Source: Prevotella sp. (GTDB lineage Bacteria; Bacteroidota; Bacteroidia; Bacteroidales; Bacteroidaceae). From it: a DNA stretch of 64,000 bases. Of this stretch, positions 340-61,814 are shown one piece after another. The position numbers and the translations under genes are program-made. The notes under the pieces are model-generated. The model saw only the letters and a list, made by a program, of their open reading frames with translations. It did not search any database and had not been told where the DNA came from. Each line of letters begins with the position of its first letter. Within the stretch, counting starts at the first letter, position 1. The stretch is taken from NCBI GenBank assembly GCA_017462915.1, contig JAFTQG010000025.1, positions 1-64,000 of the forward strand, in the 5' to 3' direction.

Positions 340-356
340 ATATGGGAAACTTAGTA

Positions 357-580
357 GCGAAAGTGAGGGCGGAGAAATGCTAAACTCCCTAATTGTGGCG
401 AAAGTGCCATAAATAAAGGGATTCGAGCAAGCGCCAGTCGTAGAAACTTATCAAAAAACAGTTGTCGGACTGTTGTCGGAAGCCCATTTTTGCCACATAG
501 ACGAACCGTTTTGTTGTCGGAGAAATTTAACTCTTATTAAGGATATGAAGCTAAAGCCAACGATACTTCCAGCGAAAGTG
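357..580. repeat. Three copies of GCGAAAGTG around the integrase start
   Basis: Exact copies of GCGAAAGTG lie at 357-365, 398-406 and 572-580, the last inside the integrase gene. Short direct repeats beside an integrase gene can be arm-type binding sites of tyrosine recombinases. Here this is inference from position only. Confidence 0.3.
461..520. repeat. Three copies of GTTGTCGG before the integrase
   Basis: Exact copies of GTTGTCGG lie at 461-468, 472-479 and 513-520, in the 85 bases before the integrase start. They could be recombinase, excisionase or repressor binding sites, or part of the attachment site. The exact host-phage junction cannot be read without the other prophage end. Confidence 0.35.
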
Positions 581-1777
581 CTGCAGGACGGCACTCACCG
601 CATTCGCATAGCGATGTCACACCGTGGCACCACTCGTTACTTCCAAACTCGCTTCATTATCCCATCAAAGTCTAACCTTCTCGGTGGCCAGGTCATTGGA
701 ATACCTAATGCCTCTTACATCAACCAGCAACTTCTCAAGCAGATGTCGGAGATATACCAGGCTTTCGACAAACTGGAGGACACAGATTACATGACTTGCT
801 CCCAGCTGCTCACCATGATAGAGGAAACCATCAAAGGGAACAAACCTATTACTCTGCATGAAGCCTTCGACCTCTACAGACAGAACAAGCTACGCTCAAC
901 GTCTGACTCTACAATCAGAATACTCGACACGGCCATTGCAGCTATTGAGCCATTTTTCCCAGAGGACTATGCTCTGAAACGGTTGGATGCCATGAAGCTT
1001 TTTGAGCTGCGCGACTACCTGGCAAAGAAGAAAAAGCTGAACTCCACCACTCAGCTCATGTACCTTGGCTATCTGCGTGGTGCTGTCGCCTTTGCCGTGC
1101 GCCATAAGAAGGTGCAGTATGATGTAATGCCTTTCAGAGACTTTGAAATGCCAAAGAACAAAATCCGTGACGTGTCCCTATCTATTGAGCAGCTACGAGC
1201 CATTCGTGATGCAGAGTTTGAAGGCCAGTACAAAGAGCAGATGACTTTCTCGCGTGACCTTTTTATGCTGTCTTTCTACCTATGCGGAATGAACCTTGTC
1301 GATATTCTCCGGCTCGATTTGAGCAAGGATAGTGTGCGCTTCCTTCGCCAAAAAACAGCCAGCAGAAGGTCTGAGGACAAATCTACGGAGTTTACTATTC
1401 AGCCGGAAGCGCGTGTTCTCATTGACAAACTTATAAAAGACGGCCAGATTATATATAAAAAGAGGTGGAGGACGTACTACTCACTCACCCGGACACTCAA
1501 CAGGCACCTGAAGCATGTAGCTGAAGCCTGCAAGATAGATCGTCGGCTTATCTACTACTCAGCCCGTAAGACATTTGCCCAGCTTTCCAACGAACTGATG
1601 ATAAAGGATTCCATTATAGAGTATTGCATCGGCGACTCTATCTCTATGGCCAGCCGAACCATAGGCAACTATATCCATATAAACAAACGGATGGCCGATG
1701 CAGCCATCCGTAAAGTGTTCGATGCAGTTGCATCCACTAAGAGCATGGACGAACTGGTTGAGGAAAGCGGTCTATAG
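545..1777 (+). CDS. int: Phage integrase, tyrosine recombinase (Bacteroidetes type)
   Basis: This 410-residue protein integrates and excises the prophage by site-specific recombination. The start at 545 (MKLKPTILPAK) is chosen because Bacteroidetes recombinases typically begin this way, although the frame is open back to 473. The N-terminal half has the arm-binding and core-binding (SAM-like) regions. The catalytic half shows SFYLCGMNLVDIL in place of the usual box I, YYSARKTF around residue 339 with the conserved arginine, and the likely nucleophile tyrosine in GNYIHI near residue 374. Box I lacks the usual arginine, as is known for some Bacteroidetes recombinases. It is the first phage gene after era and one of only two phage genes on the + strand, which places one attachment site just to its left. 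Confidence 0.92.
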   Translation: MKLKPTILPAKVLQDGTHRIRIAMSHRGTTRYFQTRFIIPSKSNLLGGQVIGIPNASYINQQLLKQMSEIYQAFDKLEDTDYMTCSQLLTMIEETIKGNKPITLHEAFDLYRQNKLRSTSDSTIRILDTAIAAIEPFFPEDYALKRLDAMKLFELRDYLAKKKKLNSTTQLMYLGYLRGAVAFAVRHKKVQYDVMPFRDFEMPKNKIRDVSLSIEQLRAIRDAEFEGQYKEQMTFSRDLFMLSFYLCGMNLVDILRLDLSKDSVRFLRQKTASRRSEDKSTEFTIQPEARVLIDKLIKDGQIIYKKRWRTYYSLTRTLNRHLKHVAEACKIDRRLIYYSARKTFAQLSNELMIKDSIIEYCIGDSISMASRTIGNYIHINKRMADAAIRKVFDAVASTKSMDELVEESGL

Positions 1778-10121: not shown

Positions 10122-10799
10122 TCAGCTTCGTTGTCGGTACTTCGATTTTACCCAGTAGGCAAGGATGCCTACAATGATGAGCAGAGACAAGGCCAGCAAA
10201 GCACCTGTAGCGTAAGATAGTTGCTTCGTCTCTGTTGCGGCAAGGTCTTTCTCGCTCGATTTGGTTTCTTCTCTCTTAGCAGACTCTTCCTTGATAGCTG
10301 CTGAATTATTCACGGAGGTAAGGGCGTTCTCATTCGTTGTCTCATTCTTCTGATCGCCTTTGCGCTCAGTAGTCCGGCCTTTATGCTTGACAATCGTCTG
10401 CTTCTCTGTTTTCAAGACAGGAGAATGGCCGGAGCTGTCGGACTTGCTGGTGTCGTACCAGGTCGTTTCGGTCGTAATCACCACTTCTGTACTATCGTCA
10501 GTACGCTCAGTGAGCGACGTCTGGGTGACAGATGAAGATTGAGAGCTTGCGGTTGCCTCTGTATGACTGGTAGCTGTCTCAGTGGTATTCACCTGTTCCG
10601 TTCTCTCTGTGTTCTCCTTAACCGTTTTCTTGTATGAGCCACAAGACGAGAAAAGGGCGCAACAAATCAGAAGGACAACGAAAGCAGCCAAATAAGCCAA
10701 AGAGCAACAGCAGCCGATTTTGAAAGCTTCTTTCGGCTTCAAATCCTTCTGAGGGGGTAGCCAGTATTCGTTTGGGTCGTGATAATCGTACATAGTCAT
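10122..10799 (-). CDS. Spanin-like or other lysis-associated envelope protein
   Basis: A 225-residue protein. A cytoplasmic N-terminus of about 28 residues leads into a membrane segment ending ALFSSCGSYKK, which looks like a lipobox. A long Ser/Thr/Glu-rich region follows (about residues 55-190), and a second hydrophobic segment lies near the C-terminus (ALLALSLLIIVGILAYWVKS). With two hydrophobic ends and a flexible stretch across the envelope, next to the endolysin, it could act in outer-membrane disruption, but it does not match a named spanin family. It starts four bases from the end of the endolysin gene. Confidence 0.5.
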   Translation of the reverse strand: MTMYDYHDPNEYWLPPQKDLKPKEAFKIGCCCSLAYLAAFVVLLICCALFSSCGSYKKTVKENTERTEQVNTTETATSHTEATASSQSSSVTQTSLTERTDDSTEVVITTETTWYDTSKSDSSGHSPVLKTEKQTIVKHKGRTTERKGDQKNETTNENALTSVNNSAAIKEESAKREETKSSEKDLAATETKQLSYATGALLALSLLIIVGILAYWVKSKYRQRS

Positions 10800-10804
10800 T
10801 GCAG

Positions 10805-11473
10805 TTAGATTCTCGAATATTCATCTTTCGCCGAGAAACACGGGCATTCTTTGAGCCATTCCCACGGCTCGATGATACCATTGTGATTCTTATCCGGCGA
10901 ACAGTCTCTATGCCCTAAGATTTTTGCATGAGGGTATAGCTTCCGCAGGTCGAGCAACAGGCAAAGGAGGGCGTTCTTCTGTGCTTCTGTGCGTGTGTCT
11001 TTTGCCTTGCCGTTCTTATCAAGACCGCCGACATACACCACCCCTATTGTATGGCTGTTGCGGTTCTCTACATGAGCACCTGATATGTCAACGTCTCTAC
11101 CGTTGTGAACGCTGCCGTCCAGGTACACGACATAGTGATAGCCAATGGTCGAGAAATTCCGCGCCTTGTGCCAGCGAGTAATGTCATCAACCGTCACCTC
11201 CTGGCCTTCTCTCGTAGCCGTACAATGGATGATAATCTCATCTATCCTACGCTTTGAGCGTTTCAGGTGAAAGACTGAGGCTGTCACTTTCGGCAACAGC
11301 TTTGCAAGGGTGGCAGGGCCGACGACTCCATCAACCGTAAGGCCGTGGTCTCTCTGGAACTCCCTAACCTTTTCTTCTGTGAGACGGCCATAGATACCAT
11401 CGGGCCAAAGATTCAAAGCCTTCTGTATCTGTTTGACCACTTCTCCACGCGAATTTCTCTTGTATATCTCCAT
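10805..11473 (-). CDS. Endolysin: peptidoglycan-binding domain plus N-acetylmuramoyl-L-alanine amidase
   Basis: A 222-residue endolysin that cuts the amide bond between muramic acid and the stem peptide. Residues 1-60 form a peptidoglycan-binding domain (GEVVKQIQKALN, DGIYGRLTEEKVREFQRDHG, VDGVVGPAT). Residues 80-215 are an Amidase_2/PGRP domain with the zinc ligand motifs IIIHCTATREG and GHRDCSPDKN, and YHYVVYLDGSVHNGRD between them. The start at 11473 (MEIYKRNSRGEVV) is used rather than an upstream in-frame start inside luxS, since it leaves a 16-base gap and begins at the domain. There is no signal peptide, so export depends on the holin. Confidence 0.9.
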   Translation of the reverse strand: MEIYKRNSRGEVVKQIQKALNLWPDGIYGRLTEEKVREFQRDHGLTVDGVVGPATLAKLLPKVTASVFHLKRSKRRIDEIIIHCTATREGQEVTVDDITRWHKARNFSTIGYHYVVYLDGSVHNGRDVDISGAHVENRNSHTIGVVYVGGLDKNGKAKDTRTEAQKNALLCLLLDLRKLYPHAKILGHRDCSPDKNHNGIIEPWEWLKECPCFSAKDEYSRI

Positions 11474-11489
11474 TTCTATAACTTGTTGG

Positions 11490-11969
11490 TTAATCTTTCG
11501 GATAGCTGAGGTTTTCAGCGGTGATGTTGTAAAGACACTCGATGTATTCAGCAGCCACCTTCTTTGCTTCCTGAAGGTCATGGTACAGATAATTTCCGCA
11601 CTCCTTCATCGTGGCTCCTGGTATCTCTCCCTTATAGTCACGGATAAAGGCCATGAGCCTTATCATCGTATCAACGAGCTGGTGGCTGTCCCACTCTCCT
11701 TGAAGAATAAGGTAGAAGCCTGTAGCGCACCCCATAGGGCCGAAATACACAACCTTGTCACCAAGCACAACGTCATTACGCAACCACGTCGCCCCAAGGT
11801 GCTCTATGGTGTGCATCGCTTTGGGCTGAATATACGAATGGTTCGGCCACTGCATACGAATATCAATAGTGGTCAGTATATCACCGCTCGGCGTGTTGTC
11901 TCTCCTTGAAACGTAGAGACCTTCTGACATTCTCGTATGGTCAACGAGGAAACTCTCTATCTTCTTCAT
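11490..11969 (-). CDS. luxS: S-ribosylhomocysteine lyase LuxS (AI-2 synthesis)
   Basis: LuxS splits S-ribosylhomocysteine into homocysteine and DPD, the precursor of the signal AI-2. At 159 residues it is full-length. All key residues are visible: zinc ligands His53 and His57 in MHTIEHLG and Cys124 in MKECGNY, the catalytic Cys81 in FGPMGCATGFY, and the substrate-binding stretch SGDILTTIDIRM. Its ATG overlaps the pfs stop by four bases, and pfs overlaps metK in the same way, so the three are translationally coupled. It sits directly before the endolysin gene in the lysis operon. Intact motifs argue for an active enzyme. Confidence 0.96.
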   Translation of the reverse strand: MKKIESFLVDHTRMSEGLYVSRRDNTPSGDILTTIDIRMQWPNHSYIQPKAMHTIEHLGATWLRNDVVLGDKVVYFGPMGCATGFYLILQGEWDSHQLVDTMIRLMAFIRDYKGEIPGATMKECGNYLYHDLQEAKKVAAEYIECLYNITAENLSYPKD

Positions 11970-12634
11970 TTGAACTCACGGATAATGTTAGCTAACTGAC
12001 GGAAAGAAGTCTGAGCAGCAACCCGCCAAAACGCGAAGTAATCTCCTTCGCTGCAGCTGTCACTGATAACACGGACGGACACCATCGGGACGTGATATAG
12101 GTGGCAGACATGGGCAATAGCTACGCTCTCCATATCCACGGCAATAGCCGTCGGGTGTTTATCGATGACTGGCTGCACATCGCTGACGAACTGATCGCCG
12201 CTGACAATAAGCCCGTGATGAGCAATGGGGCAAGCCTTCAAGACGACACCCAGCAGCCACTCGTCGGCTTGGAATACAGCAGGAAGGCCCTGCACCTGCC
12301 CTGGCTCCAGCCCTTCACCACAATAGACATCATGGTAAGCATAGCGTTCGCCAACCACACTGTCTAAAGGTTTCACGTTGTCGGCCAACGAGCCGGCCAC
12401 ACCAGTTGAAAGCACTACGGCAGGGCGGTAGGTATTGAGCATTTCAGTCACGCCAACCGCAGCGTTCACCTTACCAATGCCGCATTTCTGTATGACAACG
12501 GACACTTCACCCATGGTGCCGACATAGTAGAGGTTAGCGCCTTTGTGCTCACAGGAAAGGTTGGAGACATGCTGCTTCAGCTGCTCCAACTCTTTCTCCA
12601 TGGCAACGATAATTCCTACCTTGAACTCCTTCAT
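11966..12634 (-). CDS. pfs: 5'-methylthioadenosine/S-adenosylhomocysteine nucleosidase (Pfs/MtnN)
   Basis: Pfs removes adenine from S-adenosylhomocysteine (SAH), giving the substrate of LuxS, and also acts on methylthioadenosine. The 222-residue protein has the nucleosidase fold signatures: [14 protein letters not shown] with the acid Glu13, [25 protein letters not shown] with the catalytic Glu169, and SDSC with the general acid Asp192. Length is normal (E. coli 232). It overlaps metK and luxS by four bases each. SAH inhibits methyltransferases, and this phage has two, so Pfs may keep them working. Confidence 0.96.
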
Positions 12635-13920
12635 TTGGAATGGGTCTTGAAGTAATCGTTAATCTGCTCCACTGCATCGAGGGCTTCCCATGTGAACAGA
12701 GCCACTCCATAGGTCTCTCCCTCAATGGTCTTGTTGATGCTGGTACACTCACGGCCAAAATGTCCGTATGCAGCGGTTTCCTCATAGATAGGATGGCGCA
12801 GCTGCAGTCTTTCCTCAATGGCTTTTGGCCGGAGGTCGAACAGCTCCTCTATGACACCTGCCAGCTCTGCATCTGAGAAAGCGGTCTGGTTGGTGCCAAA
12901 GGTGTTCACGTTTACGCTCACTGGCTGAGCTACACCAATGGCATAGGACAGTTGCACAAGCATTTCCTTCGCCACTCCAGCCGCTACCATGTTCTTTGCC
13001 ACATAGCGAGCCATATATGCTGCCGAGCGGTCAACCTTACTGGGGTCTTTACCAGAGAAGGCACCGCCACCATGTGCGCCTTTGCCACCGTAGGTGTCAA
13101 CGATAATTTTACGACCAGTGAGACCAGTATCACCATTAGGACCACCGATAACGAACTTGCCAGTAGGATTGACCAGCACCTTCGTCTTATCGTCAAACAG
13201 GGCAAGGATAGCCTCGTCCTTTATGTGGTCTTTCACACGCTCGATGATAAGCGTCTTAACGTCATCCTCAATGACAGCGTGCATGGCTTCGTCGTTATCT
13301 CTCATACCCTCTGTTACTCTGAGGCGCACACCAGGAAACTCGTCATGCTGTGTGCTGATAACGATAGTGTCAATGTGGGTGGGCTTGCCGTCCTCACCAT
13401 ATTCGACTGTCACCTGACTCTTTGAGTCCGGGCGCAGATAGTGCATACCGATGTGCGTCTTTCTGGCAATCGCCAGCTCCTTCACGAAAAGGTGAGCAAG
13501 ATACAGAGGCAGCGGCATGAAAGTCTCTGTCTCGTCGGTGGCATAACCGAACATCATACCTTGGTCGCCGGCACCTTGGTCAAGGGGATTCTCACGCTCT
13601 ACGCCACGGCGTATGTCGGCGCTCTGCTCATGAATGAGGCTGATGATACCGCAGCTATCGTCAAAGCCATATTCAGGCTTCGTGTAGCCGATACGCTTGA
13701 TAGTCGAGCGCACGACGCCCTGAATGTCAACGTAGGCAGACGAGCGGACTTCTCCAGCTACAATCACCTGCCCCGTGGTTACTAACGTCTCGATAGCCAC
13801 CTTCGCGCTTGGGTCTTTCGCCAGGAAAGCGTCAAGGATAGCATCGCTGATCTGGTCGGCCACCTTATCAGGATGACCTTCGGAAACTGATTCCGACGTG
13901 AACAAACTAAATTTCTTCAT
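12631..13920 (-). CDS. metK: S-adenosylmethionine synthetase (MetK)
   Basis: MetK makes SAM from methionine and ATP. At 429 residues it is the usual Bacteroidetes length, with canonical motifs: [11 protein letters not shown] at the start (His16), [12 protein letters not shown] near residue 117, and [16 protein letters not shown] near 285. No damage is seen. Its start lies inside the end of the holin gene (14-base overlap) and its stop overlaps pfs, so it belongs to the lysis operon. A host copy is almost certainly present elsewhere, so this one is an auxiliary metabolic gene. Strong conservation suggests recent capture or strong selection. Confidence 0.97.
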
Positions 13921-14491
13921 GCTGATTATTTTGTTTTTGGGTTTCTTCTCCCTTTTTCCCCTCTATGTCTCTAAGGTCATGGAGGTCAACTTCAAAATGT
14001 CTTTCTGTTTTGTCGATAAGTATTTTATGTAGAACCTTCCAAAATCGGCTCTCTTGCTCCGTATCTCTGCATGACGCTTCATTCTCCAGTATCGAAAGAC
14101 CTTGCTCAAATGCTATTGCTCCAGCAACAACGTAACTCAGCGGAATGCTAACATGAACAAAAATCCAATGCTCAACGATGAAAGCAAGAATGATAAGCCA
14201 AAGCCTTTTAGGTATCGTCTGACGAATGACCTTTCCAAAAGCGAAACTGGTGAAGTGTGCCTTTTCTCGTTTTGTCTTATCCGGGTACTTCAAATGCACT
14301 CGCTGGTCAAGCTGATACGCCGTCCATGCATCGTACAGAATCAGGATAATCACCACAATCATCAAAGGAAATGTCGGCTGAAACTCAGCCACGAACCATC
14401 CGAAGATACCACCAAGGAAAGCCCAAACGCCTTTCCAGCTCAAGCACCAGTTTATGCAACCAATGCACCAGTTAAACAAAGTATTCGTCAT
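13907..14491 (-). CDS. Phage holin
   Basis: A 194-residue membrane protein. It has hydrophobic segments near residues 18-35 and 40-57 ([17 protein letters not shown]) and two more around 95-135 ([20 protein letters not shown], then [11 protein letters not shown]), followed by a charged cytoplasmic tail. This is the pattern of the toxin-secretion/phage-lysis holin family of Bacteroidetes phages, including the [14 protein letters not shown] signature. It would open the inner membrane to release the endolysin. It is the first gene after the late-type promoter at 14503-14510 and overlaps metK. Confidence 0.8.
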
Positions 14492-14502
14492 GCCTTTTTC
14501 GG

Positions 14503-14541
14503 CAAAGTTACAGAATTTTTCACCCTGTATGCCGTAGGCAT
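14503..14541 (-). promoter_or_regulatory. Late-type promoter of the lysis and AI-2 operon, with a palindrome
   Basis: On the - strand TGTAACTTTGCCG includes TAACTTTG, a -7 element (14503-14510), 12 bases before the holin ATG. A 13-base palindrome, ATGCC-gta-GGCAT (14529-14541), occupies the -33 region where no TTTG is found, suggesting control by a bound regulator. The same TGTAAYTTTGCCG precedes the capsid operon. Confidence 0.6.
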
Positions 14542-14558
14542 GACGAACTTTTAGTGAA

Positions 14559-14609: not shown

Positions 14610-15482
14610 CTACTCTTTTTCCTTCTTTACTGGGCGGAAGTTCAAGGCAGCATACAGCTCAATGAACTGACGGCCGGCGTACTCGGCCCGTTCCCGTGTT
14701 TTGAAGGCCAGGCGAGCGCCGATGTACGAGTGCGAGAACGAGAAAGCGGCATCCGAGAGCGCGGACGAGAGACCGCAGCGCGCACCGTAATCCGCGTGAC
14801 CCCCGACGTACAGCAGCTGTGCCTTGTCATCCTCATCCATACGGTCTATCTCTTCCTGAGTGTAGAGGTAGAACCAAGGATAATAGCGGTACTCGTCAGT
14901 AGTGAACTTCGGGAACTCGTCAAGGGTGGTCTCAGAAAGTCCGTTGATAGCAGCACAGATAACGCGCAACTTCATGAAGGCCACCACGTCGGCACCGAGC
15001 AAATCAAGCGTTCTGTCATCAATGGGGAACGTCATACCGGTTGCCATCATTGCATCCTCGAAGGTGCGGATTGCCTCATAAGGCTCACATTCCTCAAACT
15101 CGCAATCTTCAGCGTTCCAACGTTTCTTATCCTTTGCGAGAGCCTTGATAAGAGCCTCCTTCTCCGCATCTGTTGCAGGACGCAAGGTGTCAGCATTCCA
15201 ATAGGCTTCCTCTTCTTCGAGTTCGCCACCGACATTGATGTGAGCATAGCAGACAATCTTGTCTTTGGTGCCGCAATACCATTCCTTGAAGATGCCGACA
15301 AGCAGCCCTTCAACGCAAGAATCGTCACCAAAAGCAATAAACTCGCCTTCTTCAGGGTTATACACTTTGCGGGCTTCCTGTGTCTCACCTACAGAAGCGC
15401 CACAATTTTTCATCAGAGTTGCCAGCTTTGTGACAAACTCTTCTGCCCGATCATCGGGCACGTTCAAAATAATATTCTTCAT
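14610..15482 (-). CDS. Remote DGR target protein (variable domain at residues 222-258)
   Basis: A 290-residue protein diversified by the DGR whose reverse transcriptase lies 19 kb away. The N-terminus (MKNIILNVPDDRAEEFVTKL) and the acidic middle (residues 80-215) are not recognised. Residues 222-258 are encoded by a variable repeat: invariant LLxVGG, CGLS, AF and GARLAF with variable residues between, as in formylglycine-generating-enzyme/C-type-lectin DGR targets. A short tail of about 30 residues follows, so the repeat is not at the very end. It has its own early-family promoter (15520-15551). There is no signal peptide or membrane segment, and it lies apart from the virion genes, so a role inside the cell or on release is more likely than a fibre role. 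Its ligand is unknown. Confidence 0.85.
   Translation of the reverse strand: MKNIILNVPDDRAEEFVTKLATLMKNCGASVGETQEARKVYNPEEGEFIAFGDDSCVEGLLVGIFKEWYCGTKDKIVCYAHINVGGELEEEEAYWNADTLRPATDAEKEALIKALAKDKKRWNAEDCEFEECEPYEAIRTFEDAMMATGMTFPIDDRTLDLLGADVVAFMKLRVICAAINGLSETTLDEFPKFTTDEYRYYPWFYLYTQEEIDRMDEDDKAQLLYVGGHADYGARCGLSSALSDAAFSFSHSYIGARLAFKTRERAEYAGRQFIELYAALNFRPVKKEKE
14709..14818 (-). repeat. DGR variable repeat VR2 (remote)
   Basis: 110 bases aligning without gaps to the template at 35941-36050. There are 17 differences, every one at a sense-strand adenine of the template (T on the + strand). The GC-rich end GGCGCTCGCCTG, likely the initiation site of mutagenic homing, is unchanged. Confidence 0.95.
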
Positions 15483-15519: not shown

Positions 15520-15551
15520 CAAAGGTACAAAGAAGTTATCAAATGCGCAAA
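15520..15551 (-). promoter_or_regulatory. Early-family promoter, copy 5
   Basis: TTTG, 20 bases, TACCTTTG on the - strand, with spacer start CGCATTTGATAA. It drives the remote DGR target gene at 15482. Confidence 0.88.
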
Positions 15552-34352: not shown

Positions 34353-35699
34353 TTATTCTATCACATAGTCGGGCAGACCGCTTGTGTTGGCACGTTTCAG
34401 CGTGCCACGGAAAGGAAAGGCTTTCTGATCGGCGACATACTGAAGCACTTGGGTCAACTTCGCGTTGTTGGTGAAGAACTTATACTTCTGGCCGCGTTCC
34501 TCCACCTGTACGACGGTTGCCGGCTTGTTATACTTCGACTTCACGCCAAACTCGGCATCGAGAAAGATTATCTCACGGTCACAGAGCATAGAGGCAGACA
34601 CCTTCGTGCCTTCCATGATACGCTTGCCATCGGCATCCGTCCTATTGAAGGCGGGCACCTGCAAATCCTTGAATGACTTCATACCCATTACCTTGCACCA
34701 GAGATTGAATCCATCGCAGTGCATCACCCAGCCTTTGTAGCTTGTAGCCGTCTTGTAACGCCGTATCGGGTCTTTCAGACGGTGCATCTTCTGCTTGAAC
34801 TTACACTTCATCCGCTTGCGCAGGAATGTCTTTGTGGTGAAGAACTGATAGCCTACATAATCGAGGCGGTGCTTCTCGTCTATGACCTGCATTCCGATAT
34901 TGTCATGCAACGGCTGGCACATGACGTTATCAGCATAGTCACGGACGAAGTTCACTGCCTTCCATATCTCCTTCGGATCGTGGCCAAAGATGACCATATC
35001 GTCGCAGTATATCTCCACCCATACATCGAACCTCGCAACTACGAGACGGCACAGCGGCCCGGTGTAGTAGTTCGCCATCGGCTGAATGGGGAACAGCCCG
35101 ATACCCAGACCTTCGTCACAGGCAGTGACTATCTCCCAAATCAGGTAGCGAATACCTTTGTTGCCGAACTTCTTGGCCAGCTCATTGTAGATTTTCTGCT
35201 GGTCGATGCGGTGGTAGAACTTCACGAAGTCAAGCTTCGCAAAATAGATGCGGCCACGCTTGCGGTTCTTGGAGATATACTTCTTCGTCCGCTTGGCAGC
35301 GAAGTGCATACCCTTGCCCTTGATAGATGCAGAGGAATCGTAGTAGTACGCCCTCACCATCACGGGCATGATGACCTGCATCAGCGCATGGTTCTCGATG
35401 TGGTCCGGATAGTACGGCAGCTTGTGAAGCAGTCTGTCCTTGCCGCATGGGCAGTGACGGACGCACTCATGGCCCGGCGAGGTGTGGTAGGTGCCAGCCT
35501 CCAGTATGTCGTGGAGCGTCTGTAGGTTGCCAGCAGCGTCTTTGTCGAAGATGCGGACTCCCTTGTGTATTTCCTTGCCTCTACGTGCCTCATGGTCAGC
35601 AATACGCAGGTTGCCCATGTCATAGACTTGGGCGATGCGCACCTTGCGGTTCTTACCACGCAGACGTGCCTTGCGTTTGTATGCCAGTTCTTCAGCCAT
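34353..35699 (-). CDS. DGR reverse transcriptase
   Basis: A 448-residue reverse transcriptase that copies the template RNA with adenine-specific errors. The catalytic blocks are visible: SIKGKGMHFAAKRTKKYI near residue 120, FAKLDFVKFYHRID near 155 (motif A), GIGLFPIQPMANYYTG near 205, and IYCDDMVIFG near 234 (YxDD, with cysteine). The position after target gene and template is the standard DGR order. The GxxxSQ signature of most DGR enzymes is changed here to FPIQPMAN, keeping Gln. The N-terminus (100 residues, HxC-rich CVRHCPCGK) and a C-terminal extension of about 140 residues are longer than in BPP-1. No Avd homologue is seen nearby. Confidence 0.9.
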   Translation of the reverse strand: MAEELAYKRKARLRGKNRKVRIAQVYDMGNLRIADHEARRGKEIHKGVRIFDKDAAGNLQTLHDILEAGTYHTSPGHECVRHCPCGKDRLLHKLPYYPDHIENHALMQVIMPVMVRAYYYDSSASIKGKGMHFAAKRTKKYISKNRKRGRIYFAKLDFVKFYHRIDQQKIYNELAKKFGNKGIRYLIWEIVTACDEGLGIGLFPIQPMANYYTGPLCRLVVARFDVWVEIYCDDMVIFGHDPKEIWKAVNFVRDYADNVMCQPLHDNIGMQVIDEKHRLDYVGYQFFTTKTFLRKRMKCKFKQKMHRLKDPIRRYKTATSYKGWVMHCDGFNLWCKVMGMKSFKDLQVPAFNRTDADGKRIMEGTKVSASMLCDREIIFLDAEFGVKSKYNKPATVVQVEERGQKYKFFTNNAKLTQVLQYVADQKAFPFRGTLKRANTSGLPDYVIE

Positions 35700-35934: not shown

Positions 35935-35940
35935 GATGTT

Positions 35941-36050
35941 CAGGCGAGCGCCGATGTTCGTGTTCGAGTTCGAGAAAGCGTTATTCGAGTTCGCGTACGA
36001 GAGACCGCATTGCGCACCGTTATTCGCGTTACCCCCGACGTTCAGCAGCT
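35941..36050 (-). repeat. DGR template repeat (TR)
   Basis: A 110-base template read on the - strand. It is rich in AAC and AAT triplets (Asn codons in the target frame), which allow many substitutions without stop codons. It differs from VR1 and VR2 at 17 positions each, always at sense adenines. Similarity extends six bases further (35935-35940), where the repeats differ again only at adenines. An open frame across it is a by-product of this composition. Confidence 0.96.
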
Positions 36051-36213
36051 CCACGATTTGTTGCCTTTTCGGGCCTCTCGGCCCTGCGCCCTGCGTTCCC
36101 TGCCGAAGTAGCAGAAGGTGGGAAAACCACACCATCGACAGCGCGGGCGGTGTTCTTTGTGTGTTCAGGAAGTCAGACCATTCTCTCTTTCCTTCATCAG
36201 TTCTTTTGTTCAA

Positions 36214-36357: not shown

Positions 36358-37605
36358 TTACGCTGCAGCCAGTGCAGCCAGTTCCGCGCCGCTCACGATT
36401 GTCGGTTCTCCGTAGAAGGCCAGGCGAGCGCCGACGCGCGCGCTCGAGTGCGAGAAAGCGCCATCCGAGCTCGCGTACGAGAGACCGCATGGCGCACCGC
36501 TATACGCGAGACCCCCGACGCGCAGCAGCTGTCCACCTGTAGCAGCCCAAAAGCCGTCAGTGTAGTATGTGGAAGCACCTGCACCCGTAACGTTCTGTGC
36601 AATCATATCCCACCATTCGCCAAGCTCCATGCTCTTGACATATGCGCCGGAGGCAGATGTAATAGAGCAGATGAACTCACGGCCTGTAGCGGTGTTGCTC
36701 ACCACATTGCCGGGATAGACGATAGCATAGCGCACGTCGTCGCGCATCTCAAAGCGGATGCCGGGACGGAACTCCCACAGCTTACCCCACAGGTCCTCGA
36801 AGCCGAAAAGCTTCACGGGGTACTGGTCGCCGATGGTGGCGTCAGTGTAGTACACCTTACCGCTGCCATCACCCAATGCTTTCAGCAAGCCCATTGGAAC
36901 ATCACGAGCAGCCTCCCAGCTTGAAGTCTGGAAGCCAGTACCGATTGTTTCCTGTGAGTTGAGGTTGCCATAGCGTGCCTGGTACAACGCATTGATAAGG
37001 CAGTGGAAGCCGTAGTTGGCCAAGCCGAACTCCGAGCCGAGGGCCTGCGCCTCCTGCCAGAACTGGCTCATGGTCTTTGAGTGCTGAGGTGCAACGTCAG
37101 GACGTGAGTGTGCCTTGCCGTCTGCGAGGCTGATCTTGTAGGCTCCTACCCAATGGGGAGAGTCGAACACATGACCGCCGTCGATAGGCACCGTACCGCC
37201 GAAGTTCAGCGTCTTGCCCTCACCTTTGAAATGGCAGTCAGGAACGTGCACCATCGTCTCGGTGGCCTGCTCCAGTGCGGCTGTAAATGCTGTGCCGTCG
37301 GCAAAGCGCGTCCAGTCACCGCCGTTGAGCTTTGCGGCATAGACCTTACCATCCTTGATAAGGAAGGCGTAGCCGCCCATCTGTGCCTGGTAGAGCTCAG
37401 CGGCACCACGGTTGATAACTGAGAAGGCGGGGCTGCTGTTCTGCTCCAGCGTGTGTCTCGATGCAAGGGCACCGATGACGGTAGAAGGCACTGCAGAGCC
37501 AGCTACTTCTTCCGGACTGGCCTCGTAGAGTTTGCTTTCGCTGGTCACACAGAGCACTTTTGCGATACCCTCACCAGCGTCGAGTGTTGTTTTTGCTTTA
37601 ATCAT
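36358..37605 (-). CDS. DGR target: tail protein with C-type-lectin-like variable domain
   Basis: A 415-residue protein, likely the tail adhesin that DGR variation retargets. Residues 359-395 come from VR1. The region before it (WVGAYKISL near 150, GTGFQTSSWEAARDVPMG near 240, GREFICSITSASGAYVKSM near 310, YYTDGFWAATGGQLL near 345) has the layout of formylglycine-generating-enzyme/C-type-lectin folds used by DGR targets. The variable part ends at GARLAF, and a 20-residue tail follows. It lies between fibre genes and the template, in the structural operon, so it is virion-linked by position. Confidence 0.86.
   Translation of the reverse strand: MIKAKTTLDAGEGIAKVLCVTSESKLYEASPEEVAGSAVPSTVIGALASRHTLEQNSSPAFSVINRGAAELYQAQMGGYAFLIKDGKVYAAKLNGGDWTRFADGTAFTAALEQATETMVHVPDCHFKGEGKTLNFGGTVPIDGGHVFDSPHWVGAYKISLADGKAHSRPDVAPQHSKTMSQFWQEAQALGSEFGLANYGFHCLINALYQARYGNLNSQETIGTGFQTSSWEAARDVPMGLLKALGDGSGKVYYTDATIGDQYPVKLFGFEDLWGKLWEFRPGIRFEMRDDVRYAIVYPGNVVSNTATGREFICSITSASGAYVKSMELGEWWDMIAQNVTGAGASTYYTDGFWAATGGQLLRVGGLAYSGAPCGLSYASSDGAFSHSSARVGARLAFYGEPTIVSGAELAALAAA
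36421..36530 (-). repeat. DGR variable repeat VR1 (next to template)
   Basis: 110 bases aligning without gaps to the template. The 17 differences are all at template sense adenines (A to C, G or T). It is bounded by GC-rich GGCGCTCGCCTG, the likely mutagenic-homing initiation site. Confidence 0.96.
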
Positions 37606-56168: not shown

Positions 56169-57740
56169 TTATGTGAATAACGTCATTTCAGTAGTCGTAG
56201 CTTTCGCCTTGCGCTGGGGCTTCTTAGGCTCCTTCTCTGTTTTCTTTGGAAGATTCCAACCGCGCTGCTGGGCGACGGTGTAGTTGAACTTGAACCACAC
56301 TTCTTCATCCAAAAACTCAAAGTGCATGGTGCCCTTCTTGTAGCCCCTGCAGCGGAAGAATCCCCATTCAAACCATTCGCCCCACTCCTTACCAGGATTG
56401 AAGTTGCCTGAATAGCGCGAATAGTTCACGCAATCGAACAATGAGCCTATTTCATCGAAGTTCTTTCCCGTCATGTTGCACAGGGCCTTGCAGACATCAT
56501 CCATCTGGTTACGTCCGTAATCTGAAAGTTCAACATACGGCTTTGGCTTATGGTCGTACCAGTCATAGCCGGAGCAAATGCTTGGCACGATGAAACGCTT
56601 GTTGACCATGTAATTCGCATTGGTTTTCCACGTTTCGCCTGCTGTGCTGTTCTCTGCACTGAAGGAACAGATGAGGTCAAAGGCTTCAATGAGCGTCCGG
56701 AGCATACGCTGGCCGTTGGTCTGAATGACCATATCAACCACTCGGTAGATATTCCCCATGGTGAAAGGCATACTTGACTGAGATTCCACGAACTTATTTA
56801 TCTGTTCGCGCAGCTCTCTGGTTGCATATTTCTCCATATTGAGCTTTCGGAAGATGATACGCCAGTAATGCTTTTGCAGCTCCTTCTTATAGCGTTGGTG
56901 ACTCACTTCTGTACGCCTGTCATCAGCTGTGAAGGCTCCAAAGCGGATAGGCAGATAACCATAGGTATTCTTGACCTGCTTTGCCTCTCCGGTCTTTTCG
57001 TCTATCTCTGTACGGAAATCAAAGAAATCGGCAGTTTCGTTAATCTCCTTTGACATCTTCATTACCTCGTCAAACATCTTCACGGCTGACACGTAGCGAT
57101 TCACGATGTCACGGACAAAATTGTACTGCATGAGTCCTTCACGTTCACCGCCCATTGCATCCACTTCATACTGATTGAAGAAATAGCCAGTGAACTCATT
57201 GGCACCTTCTCCATCCTTATACAGCTTCACAAGGGCGACATGAACGTCTGTCTTTCTCTCGGCCGTCTTGAACACCTGGCCAAGAAATTCTTCGCGTCCG
57301 TAGTTCTCGATCGTCTCTATCAGCTGGCGTTTCTTTCTGCTATCTGCATAACCATGATTGACGCTCTCGCTATTACAGAGGGCAACAATGGTACAGCCAG
57401 CTGGAGCTATATCAAAAGCGTGTAAGATATGCTCCACTCCTTTGCTAAATGGTGGATTCATCACTATCATGTCGATGTGGCTAACCATGTCTGAGGTAAC
57501 TGTCAGGAAATCCTCGGCTATCACGTCACACTTGCCGTTGAGCAGCTTCAGGTTGTTTTGGTCGTTCTCACAGGCAATGACCTCACCAGCACCATTCTTT
57601 TTCAGCCAGTCAACGATGTTTCCCTTGCCAGCTGATGGCTCCAGTATCGTCTTACCTATAAAGTCCTCACCCATCATCATCTGCTCGATGACTGCTGTAG
57701 GGGTGGGGTAGAAATCCGGGTTGTCTGTAAAAATGTTCAT
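56169..57740 (-). CDS. SAM-dependent DNA methyltransferase-like protein (DUF4942)
   Basis: A 523-residue protein. The N-terminal 190 residues form a Rossmann methyltransferase: SAM-binding motif I ILEPSAGKGNIVDWL near residue 33, an acidic loop VIACEND near 54, and catalytic motif IV MNPPFSKG near 95 (NPPF, typical of N6-adenine enzymes). Residues 200-490 match the DUF4942 region found on Bacteroidales mobile elements, with YPTPTAVIEQMM at the start as in the family. It may modify phage or host DNA, for example to resist restriction. It uses SAM and so depends on the pathway MetK supplies. Confidence 0.85.
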   Translation of the reverse strand: MNIFTDNPDFYPTPTAVIEQMMMGEDFIGKTILEPSAGKGNIVDWLKKNGAGEVIACENDQNNLKLLNGKCDVIAEDFLTVTSDMVSHIDMIVMNPPFSKGVEHILHAFDIAPAGCTIVALCNSESVNHGYADSRKKRQLIETIENYGREEFLGQVFKTAERKTDVHVALVKLYKDGEGANEFTGYFFNQYEVDAMGGEREGLMQYNFVRDIVNRYVSAVKMFDEVMKMSKEINETADFFDFRTEIDEKTGEAKQVKNTYGYLPIRFGAFTADDRRTEVSHQRYKKELQKHYWRIIFRKLNMEKYATRELREQINKFVESQSSMPFTMGNIYRVVDMVIQTNGQRMLRTLIEAFDLICSFSAENSTAGETWKTNANYMVNKRFIVPSICSGYDWYDHKPKPYVELSDYGRNQMDDVCKALCNMTGKNFDEIGSLFDCVNYSRYSGNFNPGKEWGEWFEWGFFRCRGYKKGTMHFEFLDEEVWFKFNYTVAQQRGWNLPKKTEKEPKKPQRKAKATTTEMTLFT

Positions 57741-60302: not shown

Positions 60303-61073
60303 ATGAAAAGAATCCCCAAATTTATAACCGTTTTCCTTCTCTTTTTCGTTGTTTCTATACATTTCTCATGTTCAAATAAACAACTAAAAGAAAGTGCTTC
60401 TACTGAGCAAGTTTCTCAACGTGAAGCAGATTCCCTCCTTCTTGAAAAATGCAAGAAGCTTTATACAAAATTAGATTCCATAAAAGACACCAAAGATTTT
60501 CCCACCTATGGCTTTTCTGTAGATGGCCCGTATAGCTGGTGGCTTAACGAAATACACGCTTTCTCTGAATCCGAAAACAAATCTCTTTTTTCTGCCTATG
60601 GTATAACACAATCAGACATCGAACAGGTTGCGCTTGATTATGTTAATTCTAATACCATTTTAAGCGTCGAAGAAATTAAAGCTGCAGATGAAAGGCGTAA
60701 TAGAGTTGAAAGAATCCTTTATTTCGGCATTCGTCTTGATTCTGATTTTAGCTCTGAAATTGCAAGCGCCATCAATAATAGTTCAAAAACCATTCTTGGC
60801 AGGTGGAAACTAACAGCGCACCAAGCAAAAACGCTATCATATATTCTTGAAGTTTTTAGTGTAAACGATAATTACTATTTCACGCAATCTTATACAAATG
60901 GGAATGAGCCTACCAGTGGCAAGCTCATTCGAAGAGGACATGCTTTCTATGAAGTCCCCAGTGTCTCAGGTGATTATTTTGTCATTCTCGATGACATTCT
61001 CTTTCTTGCTGACGATGGTGGCGAATACGAAGATGGCACAAAGGGACTTTACTCTATCACTCCATTAAAATAG
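60303..61073 (+). CDS. Phage lipoprotein (moron)
   Basis: A 256-residue protein with a lipoprotein signal (MKRIPKFITVFLLFFVVSIH, then FSC), so it should be lipidated at a cysteine near residue 23. The mature part is unknown, with a beta-rich C-terminus (LIRRGHAFYEVPSVSGDYFV). The ATG at 60303 is used because it begins the signal peptide. It is the only + strand gene inside the phage besides the integrase, has its own -7 element, and is clearly richer in A and T than its neighbours, so it looks like a late acquisition expressed from the prophage. It overlaps the convergent methyltransferase by nine bases. Confidence 0.8.
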   Translation: MKRIPKFITVFLLFFVVSIHFSCSNKQLKESASTEQVSQREADSLLLEKCKKLYTKLDSIKDTKDFPTYGFSVDGPYSWWLNEIHAFSESENKSLFSAYGITQSDIEQVALDYVNSNTILSVEEIKAADERRNRVERILYFGIRLDSDFSSEIASAINNSSKTILGRWKLTAHQAKTLSYILEVFSVNDNYYFTQSYTNGNEPTSGKLIRRGHAFYEVPSVSGDYFVILDDILFLADDGGEYEDGTKGLYSITPLK

Positions 61074-61814
61074 CGTCTGCTGTTTAGCCTCTCCCTTCAG
61101 CCGATTCTCAGCAACAGCATAGAACTTCTCATTATTCTCTATGCCGATGTATTTCCTGCAAAGCCTTTGAGCGGCAACAGCCGTAGTGCCTGAGCCCAGG
61201 AATGGGTCAAGCACCACGTCACCTTCATTCGTTGACAAGCGGATGAAACGCTCCATTATCTCAGCGGGTTTCTGTGTTGGATGCAGCTTCTTACGGACTG
61301 ACTGAGCATGGAGAATACGGCTATACATTTCGCTATCATCCATAGCTTTCAGTCCAGTACCAAGCTCATAGATACGAATGATAAACTCAGCGTTTTGAGC
61401 AAAGCGTTTCTTGTTGATGATTCCCAGAGGTTTCTCCCAAACCAGCAGGGCGAACTTATAACCGTGCTCTATAGCCCACTGAGCGTATAGCGGTATCTGG
61501 TCCTCGCAACAGAAGATGTATGCGTTCATCTTCTTCATCAGCCGTGGTGTCAAATCCAGCCAACGGTAGATGTCATCCTTCGTGAACTGCACCTTGATCC
61601 TACACTCTCCACTCTCGTCATTGTAGTCATAGAGCGAAGTGTTGCTATGGCACTTCTCATTCTCACCGCGCTCAAACTTGCCGTTGTGCTTACTGAAGCA
61701 ATACGGCGGGTCGGTCACAATGAGGTCAATGCTATATGCTGGCAGGTCATCCATCACCTGCAGGTTGTCGCCGAATATCAGCCGGCTTTCCTTGATAGTG
61801 TTGATGTACCTCAT
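61065..61814 (-). CDS. DNA methyltransferase (N6-adenine or N4-cytosine, DPPY type)
   Basis: A 249-residue enzyme that transfers a methyl group from SAM to a DNA base. IVTDPPYCFSKHNGKF is the catalytic motif IV near residue 33, and VVLDPFLGSGTTAVAAQRL near 213 is motif I, with YIGIEN after it. The order catalytic-then-SAM motif is that of beta-group methyltransferases. HPTQKP near 180 is typical. No restriction endonuclease is next to it, so it is probably an orphan that protects phage DNA. It lies between the tape-measure module and the lipoprotein. Confidence 0.9.
   Translation of the reverse strand: MRYINTIKESRLIFGDNLQVMDDLPAYSIDLIVTDPPYCFSKHNGKFERGENEKCHSNTSLYDYNDESGECRIKVQFTKDDIYRWLDLTPRLMKKMNAYIFCCEDQIPLYAQWAIEHGYKFALLVWEKPLGIINKKRFAQNAEFIIRIYELGTGLKAMDDSEMYSRILHAQSVRKKLHPTQKPAEIMERFIRLSTNEGDVVLDPFLGSGTTAVAAQRLCRKYIGIENNEKFYAVAENRLKGEAKQQTLF

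Follow-up and report, generated by a model that had tools for sequence, protein, structure and literature searches.

A metK-pfs-luxS cassette packed between a holin-like gene and the endolysin gene of a prophage

We found that a prophage carries genes for three predicted enzymes, the S-adenosylmethionine synthetase MetK, the nucleosidase Pfs and the S-ribosylhomocysteine lyase LuxS, which by sequence are intact and belong to the correct families. The genes are tightly packed as an operon, with a holin-like gene on one side and the gene of an amidase endolysin on the other. Together with any methyltransferase, MetK, Pfs and LuxS make up the activated methyl cycle as far as homocysteine. The reading we favor, with a probability of roughly 55%, is that the phage carries this cycle to supply SAM and clear SAH, and would express it with its lysis genes. 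The window, meaning the whole stretch of DNA analyzed here, corresponds to the first 64,000 bases of contig C58 (104,715 bp), which belongs to a genome bin (G000) of 2.93 Mb and 59 contigs.

The lysis unit lies on the minus strand. Its first gene encodes a holin-like membrane protein of 194 aa (13907..14491) and is followed by metK (12631..13920; 429 aa), pfs/mtnN (11966..12634; an MTA/SAH nucleosidase of 222 aa), luxS (11490..11969; 159 aa), the endolysin gene (10805..11476) and a gene for a spanin-like protein (10122..10799). Adjacent genes overlap by 14 nt at the holin-like/metK junction and by 4 nt at each of the metK/pfs and pfs/luxS junctions, and 13 nt separate the end of luxS from the homologue-supported start of the amidase; the endolysin ORF is open from 11581, and the homologue in the related phage contig L013 begins at the equivalent of 11476. 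An initial annotation of this DNA had given the coordinates and four-base overlaps of metK, pfs and luxS exactly, and the tight packing bears out the shared operon layout with the lysis genes that it described.

Its description of full-length enzymes with intact active-site motifs likewise agrees with profile scores above equivalog cut-offs and with invariant key residues. MetK scored 515 bits against the equivalog profile TIGR01034 (cut-off 309.4) over residues 6-398 of 429 and has three Pfam domains; Pfs scored 174.7 bits against NF004079 (cut-off 169) and 144.1 bits against TIGR01704 (cut-off 73.8); and LuxS scored 191.9 bits against NF002604 (cut-off 158). All three also exceeded Pfam cut-offs (PF02664 for LuxS), and each matched solved PDB structures of its own family (MetK, MTAN and LuxS, respectively). 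Residues H53, E56, H57, C81 and C124 are invariant in 8/8 aligned phage LuxS proteins, and we take this HxxEH motif and these cysteines to be metal-binding or catalytic. In Pfs, E15, E169 and D192 are invariant in all seven aligned proteins (six phage, one bacterial) and presumably correspond to the E. coli catalytic acids E12, E174 and D197.

The identity of the predicted endolysin is certain from its family matches (PG_binding_1 and Amidase_2), and the holin and spanin labels come from position and membrane features. The holin-like protein has hydropathy peaks and 27 relatives in viral contigs, and it matched no Pfam or PHROG family at E<=0.001, with sub-cut-off matches only at E<=1. Phage_holin_4_1 matched one of 11 holin-like members (E 0.0072), and the structural model is all-helical with low confidence (pLDDT 65), too weak for a fold search. 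Of the earlier placement between holin and endolysin, the gene order and the endolysin stand; the name holin comes from position and predicted helices only, and we write holin-like. The spanin-like protein, which we take to be a unimolecular spanin, has a lipobox-like N-terminal part and a C-terminal membrane helix (by eye), and its homologue is retained after the endolysin in relatives.

The surrounding DNA is a genuine prophage, as had been proposed. A 13-base att core occurs at position 348, within attL (342..360), and again at 104518 of the contig (attR, outside the window). C58 aligns end to end, in blocks, with contig G124:C5, which contains a stretch of JAEEZX010000064.1 (107,776 bp, 'Bacteroidaceae bacterium isolate Tb.RUG.95'), in which the repeat also lies near both ends. 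To the left of the prophage, C58 has the end of era (NF000908, E 1.7e-13); to its right, both contigs have the start of der (TIGR03594 best match). The att core at both ends, together with the era and der flanks, indicates a phage of about 104 kb inserted at the 5' end of der. Portal, head protease and terminase genes are present, and a tyrosine integrase beside attL (473..1777, plus strand) is assigned from its position and a weak XerC match that lies below the cut-off (E 9.7e-6).

We considered whether a host locus had been misplaced in a phage, as would be suspected if the host had the three genes only here, and rejected this: the bin has its own metK and luxS elsewhere (67% and 48% identical to the phage copies), and the cassette recurs in other phages. 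Within the bin, canonical pfs was found only in the phage. Three PNP_UDP_1 genes lie in the bin outside C58, two of them DeoD-like and uridine-phosphorylase-like by eye. The third, on contig C39, is nucleosidase-like and scored 60 against NF004079 (cut-off 169) and 45 against TIGR01704 (cut-off 73.8), under both cut-offs, leaving no canonical pfs in the bin beyond the phage copy; a search of the bin for AhcY gave no match. Queried with the phage Pfs, 210 of 399 genomes of the family gave a match at E<=1e-20; of the 32 others listed from the genus of G000, 31 did. In G000 and G124, both lysogens and both draft genomes, the single match at this threshold is the phage copy. Two lysogens are too few for any conclusion.

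The cassette is conserved in related phages. We scanned viral contigs with luxS, pfs, holin and metK, and genomes with luxS, the latter giving 10 loci, one of them phage-type. All counts are lower bounds because pattern scans miss relatives; the luxS of L152 and the holins of L152-L156 were missed by the luxS and holin scans and found only via metK. In 14/14 family records carrying any of the three genes (window included), metK directly follows the holin-like gene. The full triad is present in six of these, at the same place: C58, G124:C5 and four IMG/VR contigs (L010-L013). The suggested search for metK, pfs and luxS near the lysis genes of other phages thus returned five further records. Two records have metK-lipoprotein-luxS (L152, L232), three have metK-pfs with no luxS seen (L154, L155 and L266, the last at the locus only), two end inside pfs (L156, L276) and one has no cassette gene but metK (L026). 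Searched over the whole record, L026, L154 and L155 gave no LuxS, and L152, L232 and L026 gave no PNP_UDP_1; L152, L154 and L155 are fragments of 8.6-17.7 kb. Among the 27 holin relatives, 22 (L027-L048) had none of the three genes by tblastn, seven of them with <6 kb downstream, and in at least 7 of the 13 whose ORFs were read (L029, L030, L032, L034, L040, L042, L044) the gene after the holin looks endolysin-like by eye. That another phage lineage keeps the same order, at 76% (luxS) to 92% (metK) protein identity, excludes chance.

A second arrangement occurs in more distant phages. In contigs L236, L237 and L238 (98, 59 and 102 kb) the tightly spaced genes run pfs-luxS-metK and lie about 350-600 bases downstream of a different lysis gene, of Amidase_3 type in L236 and L237 and of GH19 type in L238. 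With terminases that share 58-60% identity with the C58 terminase, these are distant relatives of the C58 phage. Two contigs of 124 kb and 120 kb have metK and pfs close together and luxS elsewhere on the record. L233 and L243, outside the family (L243 being a short fragment), carry luxS on records that gave no PNP_UDP_1 match, and in L233 a DAM-like methylase gene comes after metK and luxS.

The gene trees answer the suggested comparison with host copies: phage copies form their own clades, apart from the host copies sampled. Copies of the holin-metK family (group A) form one clade, with support of 96 for luxS, 99 for metK and 97/98 for pfs, and copies of the pfs-luxS-metK phages (group B) form another, with support of 95, 100 and 100/100, respectively. 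Both are apart from copies labeled chromosomal in all three trees, a label given mostly to best-scoring matches; neighboring genes were read for L007, L008, L016, L017, L234 and L235, and L073-L081 and most rows from G-numbered genomes carry the label without context reading. L161 and L166 duplicate the L237 and L238 contigs and were dropped from the trees, and the luxS tree has a weak backbone and several long branches. An independent origin of the cassette in A and B might be read from the differing order and separate clades, but a single A+B clade is not rejected by AU tests (p 0.249 for pfs, 0.175 for luxS and 0.479 for metK, with L161, L166, L239, L240, L244 and L163 dropped where present), and independent origin is not shown. 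One old acquisition followed by rearrangement is possible from these trees.

Between the window and L013, NG86 dN/dS is 0.066 for metK, 0.097 for pfs and 0.113 for luxS, with 0.063 for the holin-like gene and 0.083 for the amidase; as dS is 0.84-2.1, these ratios are rough. By this measure the three phage genes are under purifying selection. Compared with L010/L011, pfs of the window has a dS of 0.97 and metK and luxS have a dS of 0.04-0.08, and pfs alone was probably swapped by recombination between the window phage and L010/L011. On these grounds the cassette would count as auxiliary metabolic genes: host-type metabolic genes that lie inside phage DNA and are conserved there.

What might a phage gain from these genes? 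In the model we favor, MetK would make SAM from methionine and ATP, and phage methyltransferases would consume it, leaving SAH, their strong inhibitor. Pfs would split SAH, as well as MTA and the 5'-deoxyadenosine left by a phage radical-SAM protein, and LuxS would convert ribosylhomocysteine into homocysteine, which the host can re-methylate, and DPD, the AI-2 precursor, which would here be a by-product. SAM synthesis and SAH clearance would rise with the lysis operon as host supply fails, at the time when new genomes and proteins undergo modification. The selected benefit would then be support of the methyl cycle. The phage itself has several candidate SAM users: an N6_N4 DNA methylase (61065..61814, minus strand; PF01555, 113 bits), a DUF4942 protein (56169..57740, minus strand; PF13708, no NCBIfam match) whose N-terminal part is methyltransferase-like by eye and which is thus a putative SAM user, a ParB_N+methyltransferase fusion and the radical-SAM protein. 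The earlier count of two phage methyltransferases was therefore too low, the phage having more than two SAM users. Of 13 phage records searched for an N6_N4 methylase, seven gave matches, four strong and three (group B) weak and split; the other six, several of them fragments, gave no match, and no methyltransferase gene lies inside the window's metK-pfs-luxS cassette.

Several observations argue for this model. Among the family records with the cassette, metK is never missing, and pfs and luxS sometimes are, which favors SAM supply and SAH clearance over a role in AI-2 production only. The one canonical SAH-clearing gene found in the bin is the phage's, and the several SAM users, like the DAM-like methylase after metK and luxS in L233, point the same way. 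Against the model, luxS is not needed for SAH relief, which Pfs provides, yet it is under purifying selection; the lack of a methyltransferase gene in the cassette and the six records with no N6_N4 methylase match also count against it. The initial annotation had put forward a lysis-timed AI-2 signal to neighboring cells or prophages; on this reading lysis would release a burst of DPD/AI-2, and metK and pfs would serve to feed LuxS. It is one of three live options, and we regard it as unlikely. The selection on luxS and the position of the cassette between holin and endolysin fit such a signal, and induction of an E. coli lysogen of T1 type by AI-2 has been reported (PMC6737242). The occurrence of luxS without a PNP_UDP_1 match in two family records (L152, L232) and in L233 and L243 keeps AI-2 or homocysteine production alive as an explanation, and luxS without pfs is the best argument that one of these products is the goal itself. 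However, no luxS was found with metK or metK-pfs in L026, L154 and L155, searched whole, or in L266, searched at the locus only, three of the four being fragments under 19 kb. In addition, the bin already has its own luxS, and a bursting cell could release host AI-2 anyway.

The third live option is that the genes are expressed in the lysogen, where they would recycle SAM and SAH, above all by providing the missing Pfs, so that the host is altered or becomes dependent on its prophage. We consider this slightly less likely than the AI-2 signal. It would accommodate the finding that the only Pfs match of G000 and G124 at E<=1e-20 is the phage copy, against the 31 of 32 other same-genus genomes listed, along with the unmatched AhcY in G000 and the long branch of the bin's own luxS; a prophage metK in Streptococcus agalactiae has also been linked to autoaggregation and biofilm (PMC8223999). 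However, these are two lysogens only, both drafts, the divergent nucleosidase on C39 may serve despite falling below both family cut-offs, and lysogens usually keep genes located with lysis genes silent. A bolder and quite improbable version combines the two: temperate Bacteroidales phages would have taken over the host methyl cycle, lysogens would lose their SAH nucleosidase and become prophage-dependent, and at lysis the operon would turn the SAM pool of the cell into an AI-2 burst that is sensed by other lysogens. If true, a metabolic cassette doubles as a phage-to-phage broadcast. That the cassette is passive cargo, a piece of chromosome caught by a phage and unselected, is close to refuted. 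Although pfs and luxS are often neighbors in Bacteroidaceae genomes (for example, G005) and the pair could be caught in one step, dN/dS values of 0.07-0.11, the lack of stop codons, the same place in two diverged lineages and the phage clades in all three trees speak against it.

The timing assumed by the favored model depends on how the operon is expressed. Directly upstream of the holin-like gene lies a TANNTTTG box (14503..14510, minus strand), which we take to be the -7 element of Bacteroidetes promoters. Its positions are invariant, directly before the holin, in 9/9 aligned records, of which three are nearly identical and two (L030, L042) have no cassette. This placement fits one lysis transcript, and the cassette is likely co-transcribed with the holin-like gene. 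The evidence that this holin-promoter layout recurs near C58 76877 is only suggestive. Scans for Sigma-70 promoters and terminators found no more than chance. A promoter-like repeat of the form TTTGCGCATTTGAT...TACCTTTG (15520..15551, minus strand) is one of 11 close copies on that strand of the contig. The minus strand has 15 matches to it, where 20 first-order Markov sequences average 0.7, and 11 of the 15 share TTTGCGYATWTGAT; the plus strand has three against 1.35 expected. The repeat at 15551 lies one gene upstream of the holin-like gene and is kept in L011 and L013, not in L026 and L232. With this copy upstream and several others preceding non-structural genes, strictly late expression is not established. 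Minus-strand sites include 4195, 5314, 9540, 15551, 24382, 49105, 50805, 55310 and 59574; the repeats, which are up to about 85 nt long, precede many small phage operons and are possibly a shared regulatory site. At 14484-14547, the holin start codon falls within an arm of an 11-base inverted repeat formed with the upstream region (by eye), which might hide the ribosome site of the holin.

The comparison with known systems clarifies what is new here. The initial annotation had noted that single metabolic genes are common on phages, and the wide occurrence of phage metK agrees. Of the 50,697 records that make up the phage collection, 136 match metK (90 bear the name Streptococcus, some others look bacterial, and one match overlaps an adenine methyltransferase annotation), as do at least 583 IMG/VR stretches, some presumably bacterial. 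In pig-gut prophages, metK follows dcm when auxiliary genes are ranked by frequency (PMC12454387), and deletion of a prophage metK in Streptococcus agalactiae affected aggregation and biofilm, with metK alone restoring them in part (PMC8223999); the metK and mtnN named in a jumbo-phage survey belong to the bacterial host rather than to the phage (PMC13037316). The metK of Streptococcus phages, pig-gut prophages and many IMG/VR contigs is likewise a phage-borne SAM synthetase, but no Streptococcus phage record matched luxS in the luxS search, whereas here three genes form one operon between holin and endolysin. Chromosomal Bacteroidaceae have the same two enzymes as an adjacent pfs-luxS pair in several genomes; the phage copies differ in forming their own clades, in being joined to metK and in lying in a lysis operon. 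Bacteroides phage BS-TP3 (PQ571276.1; 57.5 kb) shares a portal 52% identical and integrase genes, but its 'holin family' gene (22% identical) stands directly before the endolysin with nothing between. Neither phage luxS nor the triad came up in our searches of the open-licence literature. Arbitrium, phage LuxR and VqmA-Qtip are phage quorum-sensing systems. The cassette could likewise tie lysis to small-molecule signaling; those systems, however, come with a receptor and regulate lysis-lysogeny (PMC7790227), whereas what we see in the cassette is synthesis enzymes.

On phage contigs more broadly, luxS appears to be an overlooked gene. It is present in 28 IMG/VR contigs, 27 found by luxS scans and one via metK (L152); at least two of these look bacterial (L234, L235), possibly also L257, and for the others any judgment was made from short flanks. 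Three are very large: L254 (673,114 bp), which also has a distant pfs (L268), L255 (344,746 bp) and L257 (411,604 bp), the one that may be bacterial. Among named phage records, luxS matches 12 of 50,697. The three best (MT835487.1, MT835691.1 and MT835476.1), labeled 'Bacteriophage sp.' (UNVERIFIED), proved to be bacterial chromosome in the stretches opened and were rejected; the other nine comprise a 691 kb Salmonella record and about eight from Listeria, Staphylococcus or Enterococcus, one of the nine being named 'Bacteriophage sp.'. Phages are known for single metabolic genes, and here a whole recycling module has been assembled, kept and reshuffled in a lysis operon. The cassette connects methyl-donor economy with DNA modification and lysis in a way that can be tested, and the natural series of triad, metK+pfs, metK+luxS and metK-only loci can be used to ask whether phages make AI-2 for its own sake.

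Two further features of the phage lie outside the cassette. A diversity-generating retroelement comprises a reverse transcriptase (RVT_1, 34353-35699), a template repeat (35935-36052) and two variable repeats, one at 36415-36532 in a tail gene (36358-37605) and one, 21 kb away, at 14703-14820 in the 3' part of the gene upstream of the holin-like gene (14610..15482, minus strand); in each variable repeat, 20/22 differences from the template fall at template adenines. At C58 90575-92040 (L015 10575-12040), ThiF-family and E2-like (Prok-E2_D) genes lie side by side, presumably a PRTRC-type cassette.
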